In this document: positions 44,415 to 52,578 of the stretch, piece by piece
Position numbering within the stretch: the stretch's first letter is position 1
How the letters are laid out: every line of letters starts with the position of its first letter
Assembly: GCA_947382625.1 (NCBI GenBank)
Contig: CANDAG010000006.1
Location: 62,001-126,000 of the forward strand
Direction: 5' to 3'
Length of the DNA: 64,000 bases
From: an uncultured Lachnospiraceae bacterium
GTDB taxonomy: Bacteria > Bacillota > Clostridia > Lachnospirales > Lachnospiraceae
Notes under the pieces: generated by a model
Told to the model about the DNA's origin: nothing
What the model saw: the letters and a program-made list of their open reading frames with translations, nothing else
Database searches by the model: none
Translations under genes and position numbers: made by a program

Positions 44415-44453
44415 CAATCAAACGCGGTCACGCCTCGCGAGCCGGCTTATTGG
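44415..44453. repeat. GC-rich hairpin element in reverse orientation, upstream of the recombinase
   Basis: CAATCAAACGCGGTCACGCC and TCGCGAGCCGGCTTATTGG read, on the minus strand, as CCAATAAGCCGGCTCGCG...CGCGTTTGATTG, matching the family. A second reverse-oriented copy lies at 45227-45263 on the other side of the recombinase gene, so together with the adjoining palindromes they form a direct repeat. Confidence 0.7.
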
Positions 44454-44454
44454 T

Positions 44455-44496
44455 AAAAAAGAGGTAACACAATGTATATTGTGTTACCTCTTTTTT
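44455..44496. repeat. Perfect 19-bp-arm palindrome (left site of recombinase cassette)
   Basis: Arms 44455-44473 and 44478-44496 (AAAAAAGAGGTAACACAAT and its complement) flank the centre GTAT. The shape is that of an intrinsic terminator. However, the inner part (44464-44496) recurs inverted at 45265-45297 with one mismatch in 33 bp, across the tyrosine recombinase gene. It is therefore also a candidate recombination site. Confidence 0.8.
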
Positions 44497-44595
44497 GTTA
44501 CGCTTAATATATCGGCAACCGGAGATAAAACTTTAGGGCTGAGAAAAATTTTTTTAAAATTTTATTTTATACTTATATTTTCAGGAGGAAAAAGC

Positions 44596-45189
44596 ATGAA
44601 TACGGCACAGCCAGTAAGAAATGCGGAGGATTTATACCGTTTTAAAGAGTACTACAGAGTAACCTGCCCAAATAAAAGAAACTACCTGCTGGTAGTGATG
44701 GGACTTAATACAGCGCTACGGATTTCAGATATCCTGAAGCTGCAATGGGATGATGTATATGATTTCGGGCGGCAGAGATACAAAGAGCATCTTTCCATCA
44801 CAGAGCAGAAGACGGATAAGAATTCTCTGATCTTTATGAACCATAATGTCCGGGAAGCCCTTATGGAGTACAGGCAATCCCTGGCAGAACAGGGGAGGGT
44901 GATCGAGGCCGGAGACTTTCTCTTTGAAAACAGCAGAGAGAAGGAGCATCCGATCTCGAGAATTCAGGCCTTCCGCATCATAAAAAAGGTGGCGGAGGCG
45001 TGTCAGCTAGACGGCGTGATCAGCTGTCATTCTCTGAGGAAAACCTTTGGCTATCACGCGTGGCAGCAGGGAATAAAACCGGCGCTTCTAATGAATATCT
45101 ATAATCATTCTTCTTTTCAGGTCACAGTCCGCTATCTTGGGATAGAGCAGGATGACAGGGACAATATTTTCAGGGATATCGATCTGTAA
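44596..45189 (+). CDS. FimB-like tyrosine recombinase
   Basis: The 197-residue protein is a small tyrosine recombinase made almost entirely of the catalytic domain. All catalytic residues are present: R42 (ALRISD), K72 (TEQKTDK), H145-x-x-R148 (CHSLRKTFGYHAW), H171 (NHSS) and Y180 (VRYLG). FimB/FimE-type recombinases of this size invert nearby promoter segments; XerC/D have a longer N-terminal domain. I start at ATG 44596 after AGGAGGAAAAA. It is flanked by palindromic repeats (44455-44496, 45265-45297) and lies upstream of csrA and flagellin. It could act locally or elsewhere. Confidence 0.88.
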   Translation: MNTAQPVRNAEDLYRFKEYYRVTCPNKRNYLLVVMGLNTALRISDILKLQWDDVYDFGRQRYKEHLSITEQKTDKNSLIFMNHNVREALMEYRQSLAEQGRVIEAGDFLFENSREKEHPISRIQAFRIIKKVAEACQLDGVISCHSLRKTFGYHAWQQGIKPALLMNIYNHSSFQVTVRYLGIEQDDRDNIFRDIDL

Positions 45190-45199
45190 GCTCTTATGC

Positions 45200-45263
45200 A
45201 TCAAACGCTCCTTACGGAGCTTATTGATCAAACGCCGCCACGCTTCAGGAGTCGGCTTATTGA
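45200..45263. repeat. Two tandem hairpin elements in reverse orientation
   Basis: Copy one (45200-45228) is short: ATCAAACGCTCC, TTACG, GAGCTTATTGAT. Copy two (45227-45263) is full length: ATCAAACGCCGCCACGC then TTCAGGAGTCGGCTTATTGAT. They share the bases at 45227-45228. The second precedes the AAAAAAGAGGTAACACAAT sequence exactly as the copy at 44415-44453 does. Confidence 0.7.
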
Positions 45264-45297
45264 TAAAAAAGAGGTAACACAATATACATTATGTTAC
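45260..45297 (+). promoter_or_regulatory. Right repeat of the recombinase cassette with overlapping promoter
   Basis: The near-palindrome GTAACACAAT-ATAC-ATTATGTTAC (45274-45297) is, on the opposite strand, the left site with one mismatch; extended to 45265 the match is 32 of 33. TTGATA (45260-45265), 17 nt and TATACA (45283-45288) form a plausible promoter for csrA and flagellin whose -35 box lies mostly inside the cassette. Promoter use and recombination are both inferred. Confidence 0.5.
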
Positions 45298-45348
45298 ATG
45301 GAACAGTATTTCGCAAAATGAGCCAAATATTCAAGGAGGAAAAACAAA

Positions 45349-45612
45349 ATGCTGAGAATGTCTGTAGCGGCTGAGGAATATCTGCTTCTGGGGGATGACA
45401 TAAAGATTGTTTTTCTGGGCGGCACCGGGAAGCATATGAGGATCATGATCGATGCGCCGAAGGAGGTCGATATTGTCAGAAGCAGTGTGCTTGAAAAGAA
45501 GATCACGGATCCGGAGCTGAAGGAAAAGCTTCCTAAATATTACAGAGCGCAGGAGCATCCGGAGAAGTATAAGAAGAAAAAGAATGTGATCATCACAAAA
45601 GGAAATCTTTAA
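45349..45612 (+). CDS. csrA: CsrA-like carbon storage/flagellin translation regulator
   Basis: The 87-residue protein matches CsrA in its core (LLLGDDIKIVFLGGTGKHMRIMIDAPKEVDIVRSSVLEKK), including the conserved Arg in IVRSSV that contacts RNA. CsrA binds GGA motifs in mRNA leaders, and in Bacillus it blocks hag translation. The N-terminal strand is odd: the usual LxLTRKxGE is LRMSVAAEE, losing an RNA-contacting Arg. A Lys-rich C-terminal tail (about 58-87) exceeds the usual length. Flagellin lies 136 nt downstream; no fliW is in the window. AAGGAGGAAAAA precedes the ATG. Confidence 0.82.
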   Translation: MLRMSVAAEEYLLLGDDIKIVFLGGTGKHMRIMIDAPKEVDIVRSSVLEKKITDPELKEKLPKYYRAQEHPEKYKKKKNVIITKGNL

Positions 45613-45701: not shown

Positions 45702-45740
45702 TATGCAAATGGATTTGCATAAAAATAAAACACATGGAGG
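45702..45740 (+). promoter_or_regulatory. Probable CsrA target sites in the flagellin leader
   Basis: A perfect 9-bp hairpin (TATGCAAAT at 45702-45710, ATTTGCATA at 45713-45721) presents GGA (45711-45713) at its tip. A second GGA lies in the Shine-Dalgarno (ATGGAGG, 45734-45740), 24 nt downstream. The layout matches the two-site hag leader known in B. subtilis, where CsrA covers the ribosome binding site. Confidence 0.6.
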
Positions 45741-45748
45741 TAAATACT

Positions 45749-46579
45749 ATGGTAGTACAACACAATTTAACAGCAATGAACTCTAACAGAATGTTAGGAC
45801 TGACAACCAAGACACAGGCTAAGTCCACAGAGAAGCTCTCATCCGGTTACAAGGTAAACCGTGCGGCAGACGATGCGGCAGGGCTTGCTATTTCCGAGAA
45901 GATGAGACGTCAGGTAAGAGGTCTTACCCAGGCTTCCTTAAATGCACAGGACGGCATCAGCGCAGTGCAGACAGCAGAAGGCGCGCTGAACGAAGTGCAT
46001 GACATGCTTCAGAGGATGAATGAGCTGGCTGTTAAGTCAGCAAACGGAACCAATCAGACGGAAGATCAGAGCTATATCCAGAAAGAGGTGGATGCCCTGA
46101 TTGACGAGATCGATCGTGTAGCAACAACTACAACGTTTAATGAGAGAAATCTTTTAGACGGTAGCTGGAGCGGTGGTATCGCTTTACAGGTAGGAGCCGA
46201 GGGGAACGATACCAATACCATTTCTGTGTCGGTTAATGCGATGAATGCATCAGGAATTTCAATCAATGGAATGAAGTCATCCGGCGTTGCATCCCAGACT
46301 GCAGCACAAAATTCCATTACAACGATCAAGAGAGCTTTAACTGCAATCAGCAAACAGCGTTCTGACTTAGGTGCGATCCAGAACCGGCTTGAGCATACGA
46401 TCAACAACCTGGATAACGTAGTTGAGAATACCACTGCAGCAGAGAGCCAGATCCGTGATACTGATATGGCAACTGAGATGGTTAAGTATTCCAACAACCA
46501 GATCCTTGCCCAGGCAGGTCAGGCAATGCTGGCTCAGGCCAATCAGGCCAATCAGGGCGTGCTGTCCTTACTTGGTTGA
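45749..46579 (+). CDS. hag: Flagellin
   Basis: The 276-residue filament protein starts MVVQHNLTAMNSNRMLG and has the full N-terminal D0/D1 region (KSTEKLSSGYKVNRAADDAAGLAISEKMR) and C-terminal D1/D0 (NQILAQAGQAMLAQANQ, ending GVLSLLG). The central variable domain is minimal, so this is a short Clostridia-type flagellin. I start at 45749 with TGGAGG upstream; the ATG at 45734 is part of that ribosome binding site. No other flagellar structural genes are in the window. Downstream glycosyltransferases probably decorate the filament. No clear sigma-28 promoter is seen. Confidence 0.96.
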   Translation: MVVQHNLTAMNSNRMLGLTTKTQAKSTEKLSSGYKVNRAADDAAGLAISEKMRRQVRGLTQASLNAQDGISAVQTAEGALNEVHDMLQRMNELAVKSANGTNQTEDQSYIQKEVDALIDEIDRVATTTTFNERNLLDGSWSGGIALQVGAEGNDTNTISVSVNAMNASGISINGMKSSGVASQTAAQNSITTIKRALTAISKQRSDLGAIQNRLEHTINNLDNVVENTTAAESQIRDTDMATEMVKYSNNQILAQAGQAMLAQANQANQGVLSLLG

Positions 46580-46642: not shown

Positions 46643-46667
46643 AGTGCGCCTGGCGGCGCACGTTTTT
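46643..46667 (+). terminator. Second terminator hairpin after flagellin
   Basis: AGTGCGCC-TGG-CGGCGCAC then GTTTTT forms a GC-rich hairpin with a T-run directly before the next gene's ribosome binding site. In tandem with 46603-46637 it separates the highly expressed flagellin gene from the glycosylation operon. Confidence 0.7.
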
Positions 46668-46681
46668 GATAGAGGGAAGCT

Positions 46682-47350
46682 ATGAGATTAAATGAACAAT
46701 ATCAGGAGCTGCTTCGTCTGGAAAAAGAGATTAACCACAGGCTGAAGTCCGGAACGGATTTTCAGAAGATTAAGGAGTTAATGCTGGATCTGGCCCGTGA
46801 TAAAGCATATTCCAGGCTGAAAACGAAAGAAAACCATCTGATCATGTTGGAGTGTTTTTTTACTATATGGTTAGCGGAAAAAAAGAAGCTGCCGGAACTG
46901 GGGATAGAGACGGATATTTTTTATCAGGTGTATGGACTTAAGGATATAGAACGGAAATATCGAAAGATCCAATACTGTGGTTTGCGGATAGAAAATGATC
47001 TGCCGGATGAATATTGTGAGCAGATAATAGAAGACCTTATGGACGAAAAAATAAGCGGTCTGGCAATCGGGAAAGTTGTTGTATTTGAGACCAAAAAGAG
47101 AGAAGACAATATTCTGCGTATTGCCCAATGGCTGAGACGGAAGGGAGATATTCTGAACGCTCTGTTGCTGGTACAGTATGGAAATGAGGCATTCCCGGAT
47201 CAGGAAAAGCTGTTGAGGGAGGAGGCTGAAATCTGGCTTTCAGGGCAGCAGGAGGAGAGAGCGGCAGAGCTTTTGAACAGAATCAGGAGCCTGTCACAGG
47301 AAACTCGAAAATCAAACAAAAAGATACGGCAGGTGGCAGGGGATGATTGA
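46682..47350 (+). CDS. Helical protein of unknown function at the head of the glycosylation operon
   Basis: I do not recognise this 222-residue protein. It is soluble and mostly helical, with YQELLRLEKEINHRLKSGTDFQ near the start and a C-terminal pattern (RIAQWLRRKGDILNALLLVQYGNEAFPDQEKLLREEAEIWLSGQQ) that looks like TPR-type helices. It overlaps the following glycosyltransferase by 8 nt, so it likely serves the same process, perhaps as a scaffold. GAGGGAAGCT precedes the ATG. Confidence 0.7.
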   Translation: MRLNEQYQELLRLEKEINHRLKSGTDFQKIKELMLDLARDKAYSRLKTKENHLIMLECFFTIWLAEKKKLPELGIETDIFYQVYGLKDIERKYRKIQYCGLRIENDLPDEYCEQIIEDLMDEKISGLAIGKVVVFETKKREDNILRIAQWLRRKGDILNALLLVQYGNEAFPDQEKLLREEAEIWLSGQQEERAAELLNRIRSLSQETRKSNKKIRQVAGDD

Positions 47351-49223
47351 CAGACACAAAATTTGTTTTGTTATATGTACTAATGATGAGCAGCAGCTTC
47401 AGGAATGTATGATGTATTTGAGTCTTTTGCACGTGCCGGAGGGGTATCAGACAGATGTGCTTACGGTGACAGATGCAGGGTCTTTGGCCTCGGGATATAA
47501 CACTGCAATGAGAGCGTCTGATGCAAAATACAAAATTTATCTTCATCAGGATACGTTCATTATAGACCCCTGTTTTCTTGATCATTTATTAAGGATTTTT
47601 AAAAGAGATACAAGGGTCGGTATGATCGGTATGGTAGGAGCAGAAAAGCTTTCCAAGGACGGCGTTATGTGGCATGAGAAACGATGTGGAAATTTTTATC
47701 GTCTGGAAGCGCTGATCAGGGAAGGGTTTGATAATATTGAGCACTTAAAGCGCGGATATAAAGAGGTGGAGGCTATTGACGGATTGTTAATGGCAACCCA
47801 GTATGATCTTCCGTGGAGGGAAGACATTTTTCGGGGATTCGATTTCTATGATATATCCCAATGTATGGAATTTCGGAGAGCGGGATATAAAATTGTGGTT
47901 CCTGCTCAGAAAACAGACTGGGTGATCCATGCCTGCGGAGCCCCTTCTTTTTGGAATTATAATGAAAACCGCGAAATATTACTCAGGGAATATCCTGAAA
48001 TCACAACATCATATCAGGATCGAAAGCGTATTTTATTTTTGCACAGCGAGCAGATCCATATGATCGGAATTCCTTTAGTCTTTACGCAGTTGGGGCATAA
48101 TGTGACGATACCTGCGGCTGAATTCACGTTGGAGGACAGCTCCAATGCAATCTGGCGTGACCAGGAGATGGTGGAAGAACTTTTGGAGGAGGGACATTAT
48201 GACCTGGTAGTTACTTATGATTTCAGCGAGGGGATGTCAAATGCCTGTCAGGCCTTTGGAATACCGTATTATGCATGGGTTTATGATTCGCCGCTTATGG
48301 ATCTGTACAGTAAGGCGGCATTGAATGAAGTGAACTATATCAGTGTATTTGACAGAAAGCAGTACGCAAGAATGAGCAGTCATGGATTACAACATTTGTT
48401 TTATCTGCCGCTGGCTCCGGAGACCGATAATTTTGGAATTGTTCGTATCGGAAAGCGGGATGAAAAGAAGTATGCCAATGATGTAACATTTGTAGGGCGT
48501 TTATATAATAATCGGGGATTTGAAGAAATTTTTGATGAAACCGGAAAAAAACATTTAGAAGAGGCGGAGCGGATCATACAGGAAATGGATTGTGTCTGGA
48601 GTGAAAATACCACTATTTTTGACAAGGCTTCAGATGAATTGATTTCCTATATGGAATCAAGATTGCCGAAGGAAACCTGGGATATGTGGAACATTGACAG
48701 GCGTTACTACTGTGAGAGTATGAGACTGGTACGGAAATGTAACGAAATAGAGAGGATCAAAATTCTGGAAACCCTGCAGAACAAGTTCTCGGTGGTGTTG
48801 TATGCTGATGATTCTGCAAAAAAAATCCTGAAAAATGTGACAGTCAGGCCATGGCTTGACTATGGACTTGAGATGCCTAAGGTATTTTATTTAAGCAAGA
48901 TAAACCTGAACATTACATCCAGAAGCATCGAAAGCGGGATTCCTCTTCGGGTTTGGGATGTATTGGCAGTGGGAGGCTTTTGCCTGACCAATTATCAGCC
49001 GGAGTTGGAGGAATATTTTGAGATAGGGAAAGATCTGGAGGTTTATCATAATCTTGAGGAACTGGAAGAAAAGATCGAATATTATCTGACCCATGAGGAA
49101 CAGAGGGTAAGGATTGCGATCAACGGTTATCAGAAGGTGCGGAAAGAGCATAGCTTGAAGATGCGGATGCAGACTGTGCTTGATGTGATTTTCGGGGAGA
49201 AGGAGAGCGCTTATGACTACTAA
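47343..49223 (+). CDS. Two-domain glycosyltransferase (GT2-like plus CgeB-like)
   Basis: The 626-residue protein has an N-terminal GT-A-like domain (about 1-225: ICFVICTNDEQQLQECMMYL, GSLASGYNTAMRASDAKYKIYLHQDTFI, VEAIDGLLMATQYD) and a C-terminal GT-B-like CgeB/DUF3880 domain (about 230-620). The latter shows HSEQIHMIGIPLVFTQLGHNV, YYAWVYDSPLMDLYS, DVTFVGRLYNNRG and a late IESGIPLRVWDVLAVGGFCLTNYQ segment. Such GTs flank flagellin genes in Clostridia and probably glycosylate the filament; sugars are unknown. It overlaps the next gene by 11 nt. Confidence 0.82.
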   Translation: MIDRHKICFVICTNDEQQLQECMMYLSLLHVPEGYQTDVLTVTDAGSLASGYNTAMRASDAKYKIYLHQDTFIIDPCFLDHLLRIFKRDTRVGMIGMVGAEKLSKDGVMWHEKRCGNFYRLEALIREGFDNIEHLKRGYKEVEAIDGLLMATQYDLPWREDIFRGFDFYDISQCMEFRRAGYKIVVPAQKTDWVIHACGAPSFWNYNENREILLREYPEITTSYQDRKRILFLHSEQIHMIGIPLVFTQLGHNVTIPAAEFTLEDSSNAIWRDQEMVEELLEEGHYDLVVTYDFSEGMSNACQAFGIPYYAWVYDSPLMDLYSKAALNEVNYISVFDRKQYARMSSHGLQHLFYLPLAPETDNFGIVRIGKRDEKKYANDVTFVGRLYNNRGFEEIFDETGKKHLEEAERIIQEMDCVWSENTTIFDKASDELISYMESRLPKETWDMWNIDRRYYCESMRLVRKCNEIERIKILETLQNKFSVVLYADDSAKKILKNVTVRPWLDYGLEMPKVFYLSKINLNITSRSIESGIPLRVWDVLAVGGFCLTNYQPELEEYFEIGKDLEVYHNLEELEEKIEYYLTHEEQRVRIAINGYQKVRKEHSLKMRMQTVLDVIFGEKESAYDY

Positions 49224-51411
49224 GGTTTTTCTTATGGTGTATCAGTTTGTTGAAATGATGCAATTAAATTTGAGCTGTCTGGAAGAACTATCCGGATTGA
49301 CTCATGGAGATATCCTCATCATAGATATGGGGGTAGATCGTGATGTAAAGGCGTGGCTGGAGGGGCAGAAGGAGTATGATTATATCTGCGCCGAAGGCCT
49401 GGAGGGGTATGGTGGGATTTTAAACACAGCTATCAATGAATTTTCTGTTTCGGAAAACATTTTTCTGCTGAATGCAAATCTGATCTGTCTGGGAGATTGT
49501 ATCAGACAGCTGGAAGAGATTTGTGAAAGAGAGGAAAAGGTCGGGGCGCTTATACCGGCCAATTTTGAGTCTGTCTGTCCGGAAAAAGCGGAAATAGGAA
49601 AAGCCATGGAGATGGCAGCAGCCAGAATCCCTGAATATAAAACGGCATACACAATAAAAATGCCTTATCAGTGCGTCTATATTAATCGCCGGTTTTGGGA
49701 TGAGACTGGTCGGATGGATGAGGCGCTTTTTCTCCCTGATAGTATTATGCTGGATTACTCATTCAGGGGGATACAGTCGAAATGGAAGTATTTATTGGCC
49801 TATGATGCACTGGTCTATGAATGCTATCCGCATACCGATATTTATACTGCTTTTTTGGGAATTAATGCGGATCGCGAAAGGATGAAAGAAAAATGGCACA
49901 TGAATTATTTTAATGAATTTCCCAATAAGGCTTTGATAAAAGAAATAAAACATCAAAGAGAGGAAATTTTTTCGGTATTAGAGGTTGGATGTGACTGCGG
50001 GGTCAACTTAATGCAGATTAAAAATGAATTTCCTGAGGCGAGACTATACGGTGTGGAAATCAATTTAAATGCTGCACAGATTGCAGGGGGATTCGCTGAA
50101 GTGATACCCGGAAATATTGAGGATCAGGATCTGCCTTATGCAGAGCAGTCGTTTGATTATATTATATTCGGGGATGTCCTGGAGCATTTGCGGAATCCGG
50201 AGAAAACCATCGTGTATTGCAGAAGATTTTTGAAGCCGCAGGGTAAAATCATAGCATCTATTCCCAATCTCATGCACTATACAGTACTGAGATCTCTTAT
50301 TGGCGGGAATTTTACTTATGAGGATACAGGGCTATTGGACAGAACTCATATTCACTTTTTTACCTATAATGAAATCCTGCGAATGTTTTTAAATGCCGGA
50401 TTTAAAGTAGACGCGTGCTCCTATACATTAATGTCAGATGTATCAGAGGAAGATGGACAGATTGTAGAAGGGCTGAAAAGTCTGGGAGGCTGCGACACAT
50501 TTACATATTTGGCTTATCAGTATCAGATAGTTGCAGAACTGGCAGAAAAGGCAGATGCGGAGAATTTTCTTCCGAAATTCCGATCGGATGAGGAAACGAT
50601 CCGCCTTATTGTGGAGGAGAAAAAATCGCTTGGGCGATTTGGGGACGGTGAATTTGCCATTGCCTTTGATATTCCCAGGCAGAAATTCCAAAGGACAGAT
50701 GCAAGGCTTCGGGATCGTATCCGTCAGGTGCTTACACAGACAGATAATAATGAATTATTAATTGGGATAGCCAATCATTATGGTGATCTGGAGCGCTATA
50801 ATGCCAGTGCTGTTTACGGGATCCAGAAGTATATGACTGATGAAACCAGAGGGCAGCATATGAGTCTGCTTTCGCCGGACAGAATATATTCAGATACTTA
50901 TATGACAAGGCCCTATGTGATCTATAAAGATGTGTTTACGGATGCACCCGGGAAGAGATTCGATGGTCTTAAGAAGATTTGGAAAGGGAAACACATCATA
51001 ATAGCAGAAGGTGCGCAGACGAGACTTGGGGTGGGAAATGATTTGTTTGCAAATGCGGCATCTGTCAGGAGAATTTTGGCACCGGCCACCAGTTCTTTTG
51101 ACAGATATGATGATATTCTTGCAAAATGCATGGAATGTCATGCATCTGCAGATCTTTTTTTGCTTGCGATAGGTCCGTCTTCCGGTGTGCTTGCTTATGA
51201 TTTATCGAAACGGGGGATTCAGGCAGTGGATGTAGGACATATTGATATGGAATATGAATGGTTTCTGGCAGGAAGGGGAGTCAGAGTTCCAGTGCCGGGT
51301 AAGTATAACAATGAGGTGGTCAACGGTGATCAGGTATGTGATGCCAACCTGCCAAAGGAGTATTATCAGGAAATTATTGCAGATCTTTCATCGGAGTCAA
51401 ATACTGTATAA
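49213..51411 (+). CDS. Three-domain glycosyltransferase-methyltransferase-GT-D fusion
   Basis: The 732-residue protein appears to join an N-terminal GT-A-like domain (about 1-225), a SAM methyltransferase (about 255-400: FSVLEVGCDCGVNLMQIKNEFPEARLYGVEIN, FDYIIFGDVLEHLRNPE) and a C-terminal GT-D (DUF1792) domain. The last (about 450-732) shows KKSLGRFGDGEFAIAFDI and IAEGAQTRLGVGNDLF. GT-D enzymes add glucose or related sugars to bacterial glycoproteins. The layout suggests one protein builds and methylates a flagellin glycan. It is the third gene of the operon. Confidence 0.78.
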   Translation: MTTKVFLMVYQFVEMMQLNLSCLEELSGLTHGDILIIDMGVDRDVKAWLEGQKEYDYICAEGLEGYGGILNTAINEFSVSENIFLLNANLICLGDCIRQLEEICEREEKVGALIPANFESVCPEKAEIGKAMEMAAARIPEYKTAYTIKMPYQCVYINRRFWDETGRMDEALFLPDSIMLDYSFRGIQSKWKYLLAYDALVYECYPHTDIYTAFLGINADRERMKEKWHMNYFNEFPNKALIKEIKHQREEIFSVLEVGCDCGVNLMQIKNEFPEARLYGVEINLNAAQIAGGFAEVIPGNIEDQDLPYAEQSFDYIIFGDVLEHLRNPEKTIVYCRRFLKPQGKIIASIPNLMHYTVLRSLIGGNFTYEDTGLLDRTHIHFFTYNEILRMFLNAGFKVDACSYTLMSDVSEEDGQIVEGLKSLGGCDTFTYLAYQYQIVAELAEKADAENFLPKFRSDEETIRLIVEEKKSLGRFGDGEFAIAFDIPRQKFQRTDARLRDRIRQVLTQTDNNELLIGIANHYGDLERYNASAVYGIQKYMTDETRGQHMSLLSPDRIYSDTYMTRPYVIYKDVFTDAPGKRFDGLKKIWKGKHIIIAEGAQTRLGVGNDLFANAASVRRILAPATSSFDRYDDILAKCMECHASADLFLLAIGPSSGVLAYDLSKRGIQAVDVGHIDMEYEWFLAGRGVRVPVPGKYNNEVVNGDQVCDANLPKEYYQEIIADLSSESNTV

Positions 51412-51426
51412 TAAAGGGAGTAGAGA

Positions 51427-52578
51427 ATGAGAATACTGCTGTTCCATGGGGCAATTGATCCCTTAAATCATTTTACCGATCATGCAAAAGAATTCCTGGA
51501 AAAAATCGGATGCGAAATATTTGTGTGTACTTTACCGCCGACAAAACAGGAGACAGTGGCTCTGGGAAAGTTTTTTCAGAGAGGCATACATGCTGTCTTT
51601 ATGTATGATGGCATTGGGATGTGTTTTAAAGAGATCTATGACTGCCTGAAGATTCCGGTGGTAAATATTTTGGCAGACCACCCTATGACATTCAGACATT
51701 GCATGGAAGCACCACCGCAGAAGTATATTCAGTTCTCTCCTGATGAAAAGCATGTGGAATTTGTCCGGAAATATTGGAATATCAGGCAATCTTTTTTCCT
51801 GCCGCATATGGGAACCGCGCCAATAGTAAAAGATGGGAACCGCCCGATAGCATTGCTGTTTTCCGGGACTTGCTGGCCTTTTGACAGATTGATGGATACT
51901 ATAAGACAGGCGGATGAGTGCTATGGTGGAGGAGGTATATTTTTTGATATGATAGATTATATGCTTATGGATCACCATATTACGATTGAGGAAGCGTGTA
52001 GTATCGTATTGAAAGATAAAAATATAGCTCTATCGTCTAAGGAATTTACAGAAGTGCTGATATATGCAAAAGCAGTAGATGAATATGTCAGGATGTACTA
52101 CAGAGACAGAGCGGTCAGGACAATTCTGGAGGCGGGTATGGATATTACAGTGATCGGAGTAAATTGGGATAAGTCTGATCTGATGAATTATCCCAATTTT
52201 CATTGGATCGGCTCTATGCCTTTTGGTGATGTATTTCAGTATATGAGTAAAAGTAAGGTTGTTTTGAATGTAATGCCATGGTTTAAAGCCGGGTCTCATG
52301 AGAGAATTTTCAACACCTTACTCTCAGGCGCATGCCCCATATCAGATAAAAGCCAGTGGCTGGAACGTGAATTTATCAACAAAAAGGAAATTATATACTA
52401 TAATCTGGACAAGATAGAAGATCTTCCGGAAAAGATTGCCACACTTCTGAAAGATGATGATCTGCGGGAAGAGATTGTCAGAAGAGGACAGGAAAAAGTG
52501 ATCCGGAAGTATAGCACTGCAAATGTGATAGGGGAGGCACTGCAAAGGGTTATTGATATCTACTATCCGGAAATATAA
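51427..52578 (+). CDS. CgeB-like glycosyltransferase
   Basis: The 383-residue protein resembles the CgeB/Glyco_trans_1_2 group: DHPMTFRHCMEAPPQKYIQFSPDEKHVEFV in the N-terminal half, then IGVNWDKSDLMNYPNFHWIGSMPFGDVFQYMSKSKVVLNVMPWFKAGSHERIFNTLLSGACPISDK in the nucleotide-sugar-binding half (about 235-320). No membrane segment is visible. It follows the fusion gene by 15 nt, ends the operon, and is probably the third glycosyltransferase of flagellin modification. Confidence 0.85.
   Translation: MRILLFHGAIDPLNHFTDHAKEFLEKIGCEIFVCTLPPTKQETVALGKFFQRGIHAVFMYDGIGMCFKEIYDCLKIPVVNILADHPMTFRHCMEAPPQKYIQFSPDEKHVEFVRKYWNIRQSFFLPHMGTAPIVKDGNRPIALLFSGTCWPFDRLMDTIRQADECYGGGGIFFDMIDYMLMDHHITIEEACSIVLKDKNIALSSKEFTEVLIYAKAVDEYVRMYYRDRAVRTILEAGMDITVIGVNWDKSDLMNYPNFHWIGSMPFGDVFQYMSKSKVVLNVMPWFKAGSHERIFNTLLSGACPISDKSQWLEREFINKKEIIYYNLDKIEDLPEKIATLLKDDDLREEIVRRGQEKVIRKYSTANVIGEALQRVIDIYYPEI

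Follow-up and report, generated by a model that had tools for sequence, protein, structure and literature searches.

In E. coli, the short tyrosine invertases FimB and FimE act on an invertible promoter. The fim recombinases adjoin the inverted segment and do not lie within it, as described in the accessible part of one paper (PMC2784873). In C. difficile, RecV switches are known for flgB and cwpV (PMC7446863, PMC2784873, PMC5903667), and for cwpV the accessible text places the promoter outside of the segment, does not place recV nearby and gives the terminator of the OFF state as a proposal (PMC2784873). The hin region of Salmonella carries the fljB promoter, which faces away in the default orientation, while the operon transcribed in the ON orientation makes FljB together with FljA, the repressor of fliC (PMC2652032, in excerpt); the recombinase lies within the segment (PMC2784873) and Hin is a serine recombinase (PMC3798978), according to the available portions of these sources. 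For Roseburia and Eubacterium, predicted sigma-28 promoters and csrA have been described at motility loci, together with three flagellin genes without an identified promoter, and the words 'recombinase', 'integrase' and 'phase' are absent from the accessible part of that flagellin paper (PMC3720852). Topic searches of an open-access library, judged by titles and abstract starts, brought up no description of the switch presented below.

The window analyzed here, a stretch of 64,000 nucleotides from an uncultured Lachnospiraceae bacterium, holds a locus that is very probably an invertible sigma-28-promoter switch carrying its own tyrosine recombinase and lying in the OFF state. This reading draws on the recombination sites, the identity of their cores, the promoter and its direction, the asymmetry of the terminators, the conservation of the locus and one clean reversed relative, all of which are legible in the sequences compared. 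The features of the locus, in coordinates of the window, are:

44417..44463 (second copy at about 45189/45227-45264), no strand: copy of a dispersed genomic repeat of ~46 bp, the origin of the direct repeat
44455..44496 (core part 44464-44487, centre GTAT), no strand: far recombination site, a perfect palindrome and, read leftward, a predicted intrinsic terminator (19-bp stem and U tract)
44509..44535 (read 44535->44509), minus strand: putative sigma-28 promoter TAAAGTTT-N11-GCCGATAT with 0 mismatches, within the segment, 5' of the recombinase and directed away from csrA
44596..45189, plus strand: tyrosine recombinase of 197 aa, with the family match spanning residues 11-181
45274..45297, no strand: csrA-proximal recombination site, centre ATAC (inverted GTAT), with a degenerate outer half and without a terminator-like fold
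45349..45612, plus strand: CsrA-like protein of 87 aa with R44 retained (PF02599, 60.7 bits, cut-off 27)
45702..45721, plus strand: GGA-loop hairpin TATGCAAATGGATTTGCATA in the flagellin leader, CsrA-site-like, fold no better than shuffles (z = -1.0)
45749..46579 (ORF listed from 45734), plus strand: alternative flagellin (PF00669/PF00700)
46644..46661, plus strand: terminator-like hairpin 3' of the flagellin
47343..52578, plus strand: three downstream genes of glycosyltransferase type

The inverted repeats of 33 nt that the initial annotation had pointed out were recovered at 44464-44496 and 45265-45297 with 97% identity (32/33), and the left site is indeed the perfect palindrome it had been taken for (44455-44496, arms of 19 bp around a 4-nt centre). 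The top inverted match of 26 nt around the recombinase gene was identical at 26/26 positions, shuffles of the flanks (n = 6) reached a maximum of 19, and the 24-nt palindrome occurs at just these two sites in the 4.18-Mb genome when up to three mismatches are allowed. Copies of a GC-rich hairpin had furthermore been described as a direct repeat: the match itself is real (44417-44487 and 45227-45297, 71 nt, 86% identity), but the hairpin turned out to be a dispersed repeat, with 51 places listed in the genome including the query itself (40 of 126 candidates scored). As the part of the direct repeat that does not belong to the site is this high-copy dispersed repeat, we regard the direct repeat at the locus as incidental and as lying outside the switch. 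The ~46-bp repeat forms a hairpin, is REP-like, and stands in tandem at several places in the genome.

The gene enclosed by the two sites encodes a tyrosine recombinase by its PF00589 match (75.1 bits, cut-off 27.1, 7.4e-21) and by its conserved R-K-H-R-H-Y residues. R42, K72, K75, H145, R148, H171, and Y180 are invariant in an alignment of 12 sequences, in agreement with the full catalytic set annotated before, the catalytic roles of R42, K72/K75, H145, R148, H171, and Y180 being those that we take these residues to have. Against the NCBIfam model for a tyrosine-type DNA invertase (NF007371) the protein scored 40.4 bits, under the cut-off of 222. Short relatives of the recombinase (about 40% identity) are encoded in Streptococcus phage Javan623 (L212), where the terminase gene follows a few genes later, and among the best 80 of the 92 relatives on viral contigs, two have a flagellin match (L227, L277). 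Two human-faecal sequences labelled Bacteriophage sp. carry csrA(-flagellin) switches and look like bacterial chromosome: L210 (MT837916.1), in the OFF state, and L211 (MT837633.1), which ends behind the gene.

Promoters were called by motif, using the sigma-28-like consensus TWAAGTWT-N11-KCCGATAW. With at most one mismatch, this consensus had five matches in the 4.18-Mb genome (in the window, at the main flagellin of contig C16, at a second switch on C25, and at C16:30745 and C51:11821) and the reversed-pattern control had 0. The match of the main flagellin has 0 mismatches and lies 178 nt ahead of its start; no match was found within 420 nt upstream of the csrA-linked flagellin at up to three mismatches. 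By its motif, then, the putative window promoter lies within the segment and is aimed at one of its ends, pointing directly into the left repeat. Read from this promoter, the RNA of the far site forms a 19-bp hairpin with a U tract behind it (-24.4 kcal/mol, z = -9.3); the fold of the csrA-side site, taken in the direction of csrA, is weak (-5.5 kcal/mol, z = -0.04). Since the promoter faces away from csrA and flagellin and into a left repeat with the form of a strong intrinsic terminator, we read the window as the OFF state, in which transcription from the promoter is expected to yield no more than a short RNA. Once the segment is inverted, the inner half-site, identical at both ends, would face the degenerate outer half, so that the terminator is not expected to form.

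In order to place the locus among its relatives, recombinase loci were gathered from named contigs (the best 80 of 568 relatives) and from additional genomes, resulting in 128 non-duplicate loci after removal of 53 duplicates, which left no two that were more than 96.2% identical. A site pair had to match at no fewer than 21/26 positions and to exceed ten flank shuffles, which was the case in 90/128 loci. Site pair, sigma-28-like promoter, and csrA target were found together in 83/128 loci, 81 of them OFF and 2 ON (79 OFF and 2 ON when the window and the doubtful L064 are set aside), which lends good support to the earlier proposal of a recombinase-carrying inversion switch ahead of csrA and flagellin. 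The OFF loci comprise 18 of architecture A, as in the window, and 63 of architecture B, where the promoter lies 3' of the recombinase; the genome of the window has another csrA-flagellin switch (G000:C25:5132-5707, L046), of architecture B and OFF. The remaining 45/128 loci, to which no state was assigned, have sites but no csrA or flagellin (7), csrA or flagellin but no pair (13), or neither (25). The repeats are mostly kept in relatives, contrary to the loss that had been named as evidence against a switch: a site pair above threshold is present in 83 of the 96 loci that have csrA or flagellin next to them. When the 13 pair-less loci were inspected by eye, weaker pairs were noted in L092 and L154, L136 and L164 seemed decayed, and L065 is cut by the contig start. 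A later batch added 13 loci: 3 complete ones, each of them OFF, L211, and 9 that lack a csrA/flagellin target.

The promoter has 0 mismatches in 38 of the 83 state-called loci, 1 in 32, 2 in 11, 3 in L132, and 4 in L064, a match so poor that the state call of L064 is unreliable. The median spacing is 20 nt from the promoter end to the faced site and 56 nt from the site to the csrA match. The far site is terminator-like in 82/83 loci and the csrA-side site in 8/83. Of the two sites, the far one is closer to a palindrome in 71 loci, equally close in 4, and less close in 8. The closest relative, L035, read base by base, has the OFF layout of the window and lacks the direct repeat. Seven isolate loci were picked, and all 6 with a state are OFF (L111 is without one). 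Roseburia porci, Butyribacter intestini and Lachnospiraceae GAM79, which are cultured carriers, have the OFF form in their assemblies. The recombinase genes of L092 (Roseburia faecis M72) and L211 are 98.7% identical and have the same orientation to csrA. L120 and L049, two of the 13 pair-less loci, show on inspection by eye a variant layout, a small segment whose two sites enclose the promoter but not the recombinase. In L128, a recombinase of the same kind with a site pair has a secreted-protein-like gene as its neighbour in place of csrA-flagellin.

Strand exchange by tyrosine recombinases requires a core that both sites share. In 81/83 loci, both sites have the same central 6–7 nt, taking as site pair the best inverted 26-nt match, a choice that favours core identity, and with the window's own row in this table in the wrong register, so that for the window core identity comes from its own repeat comparison; without the window and L064 the cores were identical in 79/81 loci, with 52 distinct ones. 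Over all loci, 54 distinct cores were counted, agreement between loci was limited to 209/3726 comparisons, and none of the 83 loci has a palindromic core. Identity within site pairs is about 1.00 at the centre and 0.57–0.74 at several neighbouring arm positions. Because strand exchange needs the shared core, such identical, locus-specific cores would be the expected trace of selection for inversion. The sites of these loci, the window included by its own repeats, are inverted and in 81/83 share an identical, non-palindromic core.

The comparison of relatives for either orientation, which had been suggested earlier, did reveal the reversed form (2/83: one clean, one decayed), but 81/83 loci are OFF and the OFF bias across loci is strong. 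The clean ON locus, L058, comes from a sheep rectum MAG: the degenerate side holds csrA and the far side the terminator, as in OFF loci, and the recombinase-promoter block is reversed, so that the promoter is aimed at csrA and flagellin. The same MAG holds a second copy (L077), which is OFF. L059 is reversed like L058 and is a weak ON example, with a csrA truncated to 59 aa and no flagellin match at the locus. L067, at one time considered a probable ON locus, was dropped owing to a run of N beside the segment and no csrA or flagellin found. None of the 63 loci of architecture B is ON (0/63), hence the ON form of this architecture is one that we infer.

The switch protein has the Pfam CsrA domain with R44 and falls short of canonical csrA, scoring below the cut-offs of the NCBIfam equivalogs (38.3 bits against 73 and 31.2 against 70.1); across 83 sequences, the conservation of R44 is 1.00. 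Three CsrA genes occur in the genome: the top-scoring copy shares contig C16 with the main flagellin, and each of the two switches holds one more. The switch-linked proteins have a C-terminal tail that the C16 copy lacks, and an HPEKY-like motif was seen in 24/84 sequences (the C16 copy included in the 84). Hairpins of CsrA-site type, defined by at least 6 pairs and a GGA inside a six-base loop, were found in 39/76 flagellin leaders, against an expectation of 0.4 (50 base shuffles of each leader), and 38/39 have the loop ANGGAT or ANGGAA, in presumed likeness to the CsrA consensus site. The main flagellin leader has GGA-loop hairpins too, which folded alone are not above shuffles (z = -1.4). 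It is possible, judging by these motifs, that the switch CsrA controls its own message, the main flagellin, or both. The downstream glycosyltransferase-type genes could possibly serve in flagellin glycosylation.

Several other explanations of the locus were weighed. The initial annotation had expected inversion to swap the -35 box of a sigma-70 promoter ahead of csrA, and the csrA-proximal site does overlap the hexamers read as -35 boxes, which a new segment end would alter. However, the scan of the plus strand from recombinase to csrA (45189-45349) listed no sigma-70-type site, a perfect sigma-28 match lies at the opposite segment end and faces away, a sigma-28-like promoter lies within the segment in the 83 state-called loci (at most one mismatch in 70), and the main flagellin of the genome likewise has a sigma-28 match; the -35 swap was given up as hardly credible. 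Excision of the recombinase between direct repeats, also raised before, or the insertion of a small mobile element beside csrA, would fit the 71-nt direct repeat (86%) and the presence of enzyme relatives in phages. This explanation is very unlikely, given that the direct repeat is a copy of the dispersed genomic repeat and is absent in L035, that the cores are non-palindromic and match in inverted order, and that the csrA neighbour and the promoter are kept in 83 loci.

If the palindromes were operators or terminators without any recombination, the terminator-like far site of 82/83 loci would be accounted for, but the core identity of two distant sites, their inverted order, and L058 would be left unexplained, and we give this view next to no weight. 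More serious, and still improbable, is a locked relic, in which the site pair was inherited, inversion became rare or was lost, and csrA-flagellin is silent in most strains. The 81/83 OFF loci, among them all 6 isolate loci with a state, the shared orientation of the two R. faecis sequences (L092, L211), and the decay of L059 speak in its favour, whereas the invariant catalytic residues in the 12-sequence alignment, the maintained leader hairpins and CsrA R44, and the reversed L058 speak against it, as do cores that are the same within and different between loci, which neutral decay would not preserve.

In the favoured reading, an invertible promoter switch, the recombinase would recombine the inverted sites GTAACACAAT-NNNN-ATTGTGTTAC across their short shared core and thereby flip about 0.8 kb. 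In the OFF state, the flagellar promoter would fire away from csrA-flagellin and immediately meet the far site acting as intrinsic terminator, while in the ON state after inversion it would read through the csrA-side site, whose outer half is predicted to be unable to complete a terminator, and csrA and the alternative flagellin would be transcribed together. The co-transcribed CsrA-like protein would then probably act on the GGA hairpin and the Shine-Dalgarno site of the flagellin mRNA. Inversion in this strain, the ensuing transcription, and the CsrA target are steps that we infer, and sigma-28 use and CsrA binding are predicted from motifs.

Flagellins of gut Lachnospiraceae are immune targets. 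As a tentative idea, which we hold to be somewhat less probable than its converse, the locus may be a convergent counterpart of hin-fljBA that is widespread in Lachnospiraceae: one flip would produce the alternative flagellin and a CsrA paralogue repressing the resident flagellin via GGA hairpins, commensals could in this way exchange their main immune target while the alternative stays silent by default, and the recombination site would serve as the OFF terminator. If so, a heritable switch that is OFF by default would help to explain why commensals have silent flagellin genes and express flagellins variably, and would represent convergent evolution with the phase variation of Salmonella. The orientation of the segment offers a marker readable in existing metagenomic reads, and it would be a compact design for a recombination site to act as an orientation-dependent terminator as well.

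Among the systems described in the sources introduced above, as far as their accessible parts go, the motility loci of Roseburia and Eubacterium belong to the same family of bacteria and have sigma-28 flagellins and csrA in common with this switch. A tyrosine recombinase, inverted repeats, flagellar genes (flgB), and silencing by a terminator (in the cwpV model) are shared with the RecV switches of C. difficile; unlike in cwpV, promoter and recombinase lie inside the segment and the target is csrA-flagellin, which sets the locus apart from the RecV type. E. coli FimB/FimE resemble it in being short tyrosine invertases of an invertible promoter, with a distant sequence match. Unlike in fim, as far as the available text describes it, the recombinase is situated inside the segment. 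The layout is like that of Salmonella hin-fljBA, in the portions of the accounts at hand, as the invertible segment holds the promoter of the alternative flagellin together with the recombinase and faces away by default; unlike there, the recombinase is a tyrosine and not a serine enzyme, which places the locus outside the serine invertases. A csrA-like gene precedes the flagellin and may have a FljA-like role, and the main leader has GGA hairpins that fold no better than shuffles. Compared with hin-fljBA as described in those portions, a CsrA-like protein encoded ahead of the flagellin replaces FljA, and the recombination site appears to double as a terminator.
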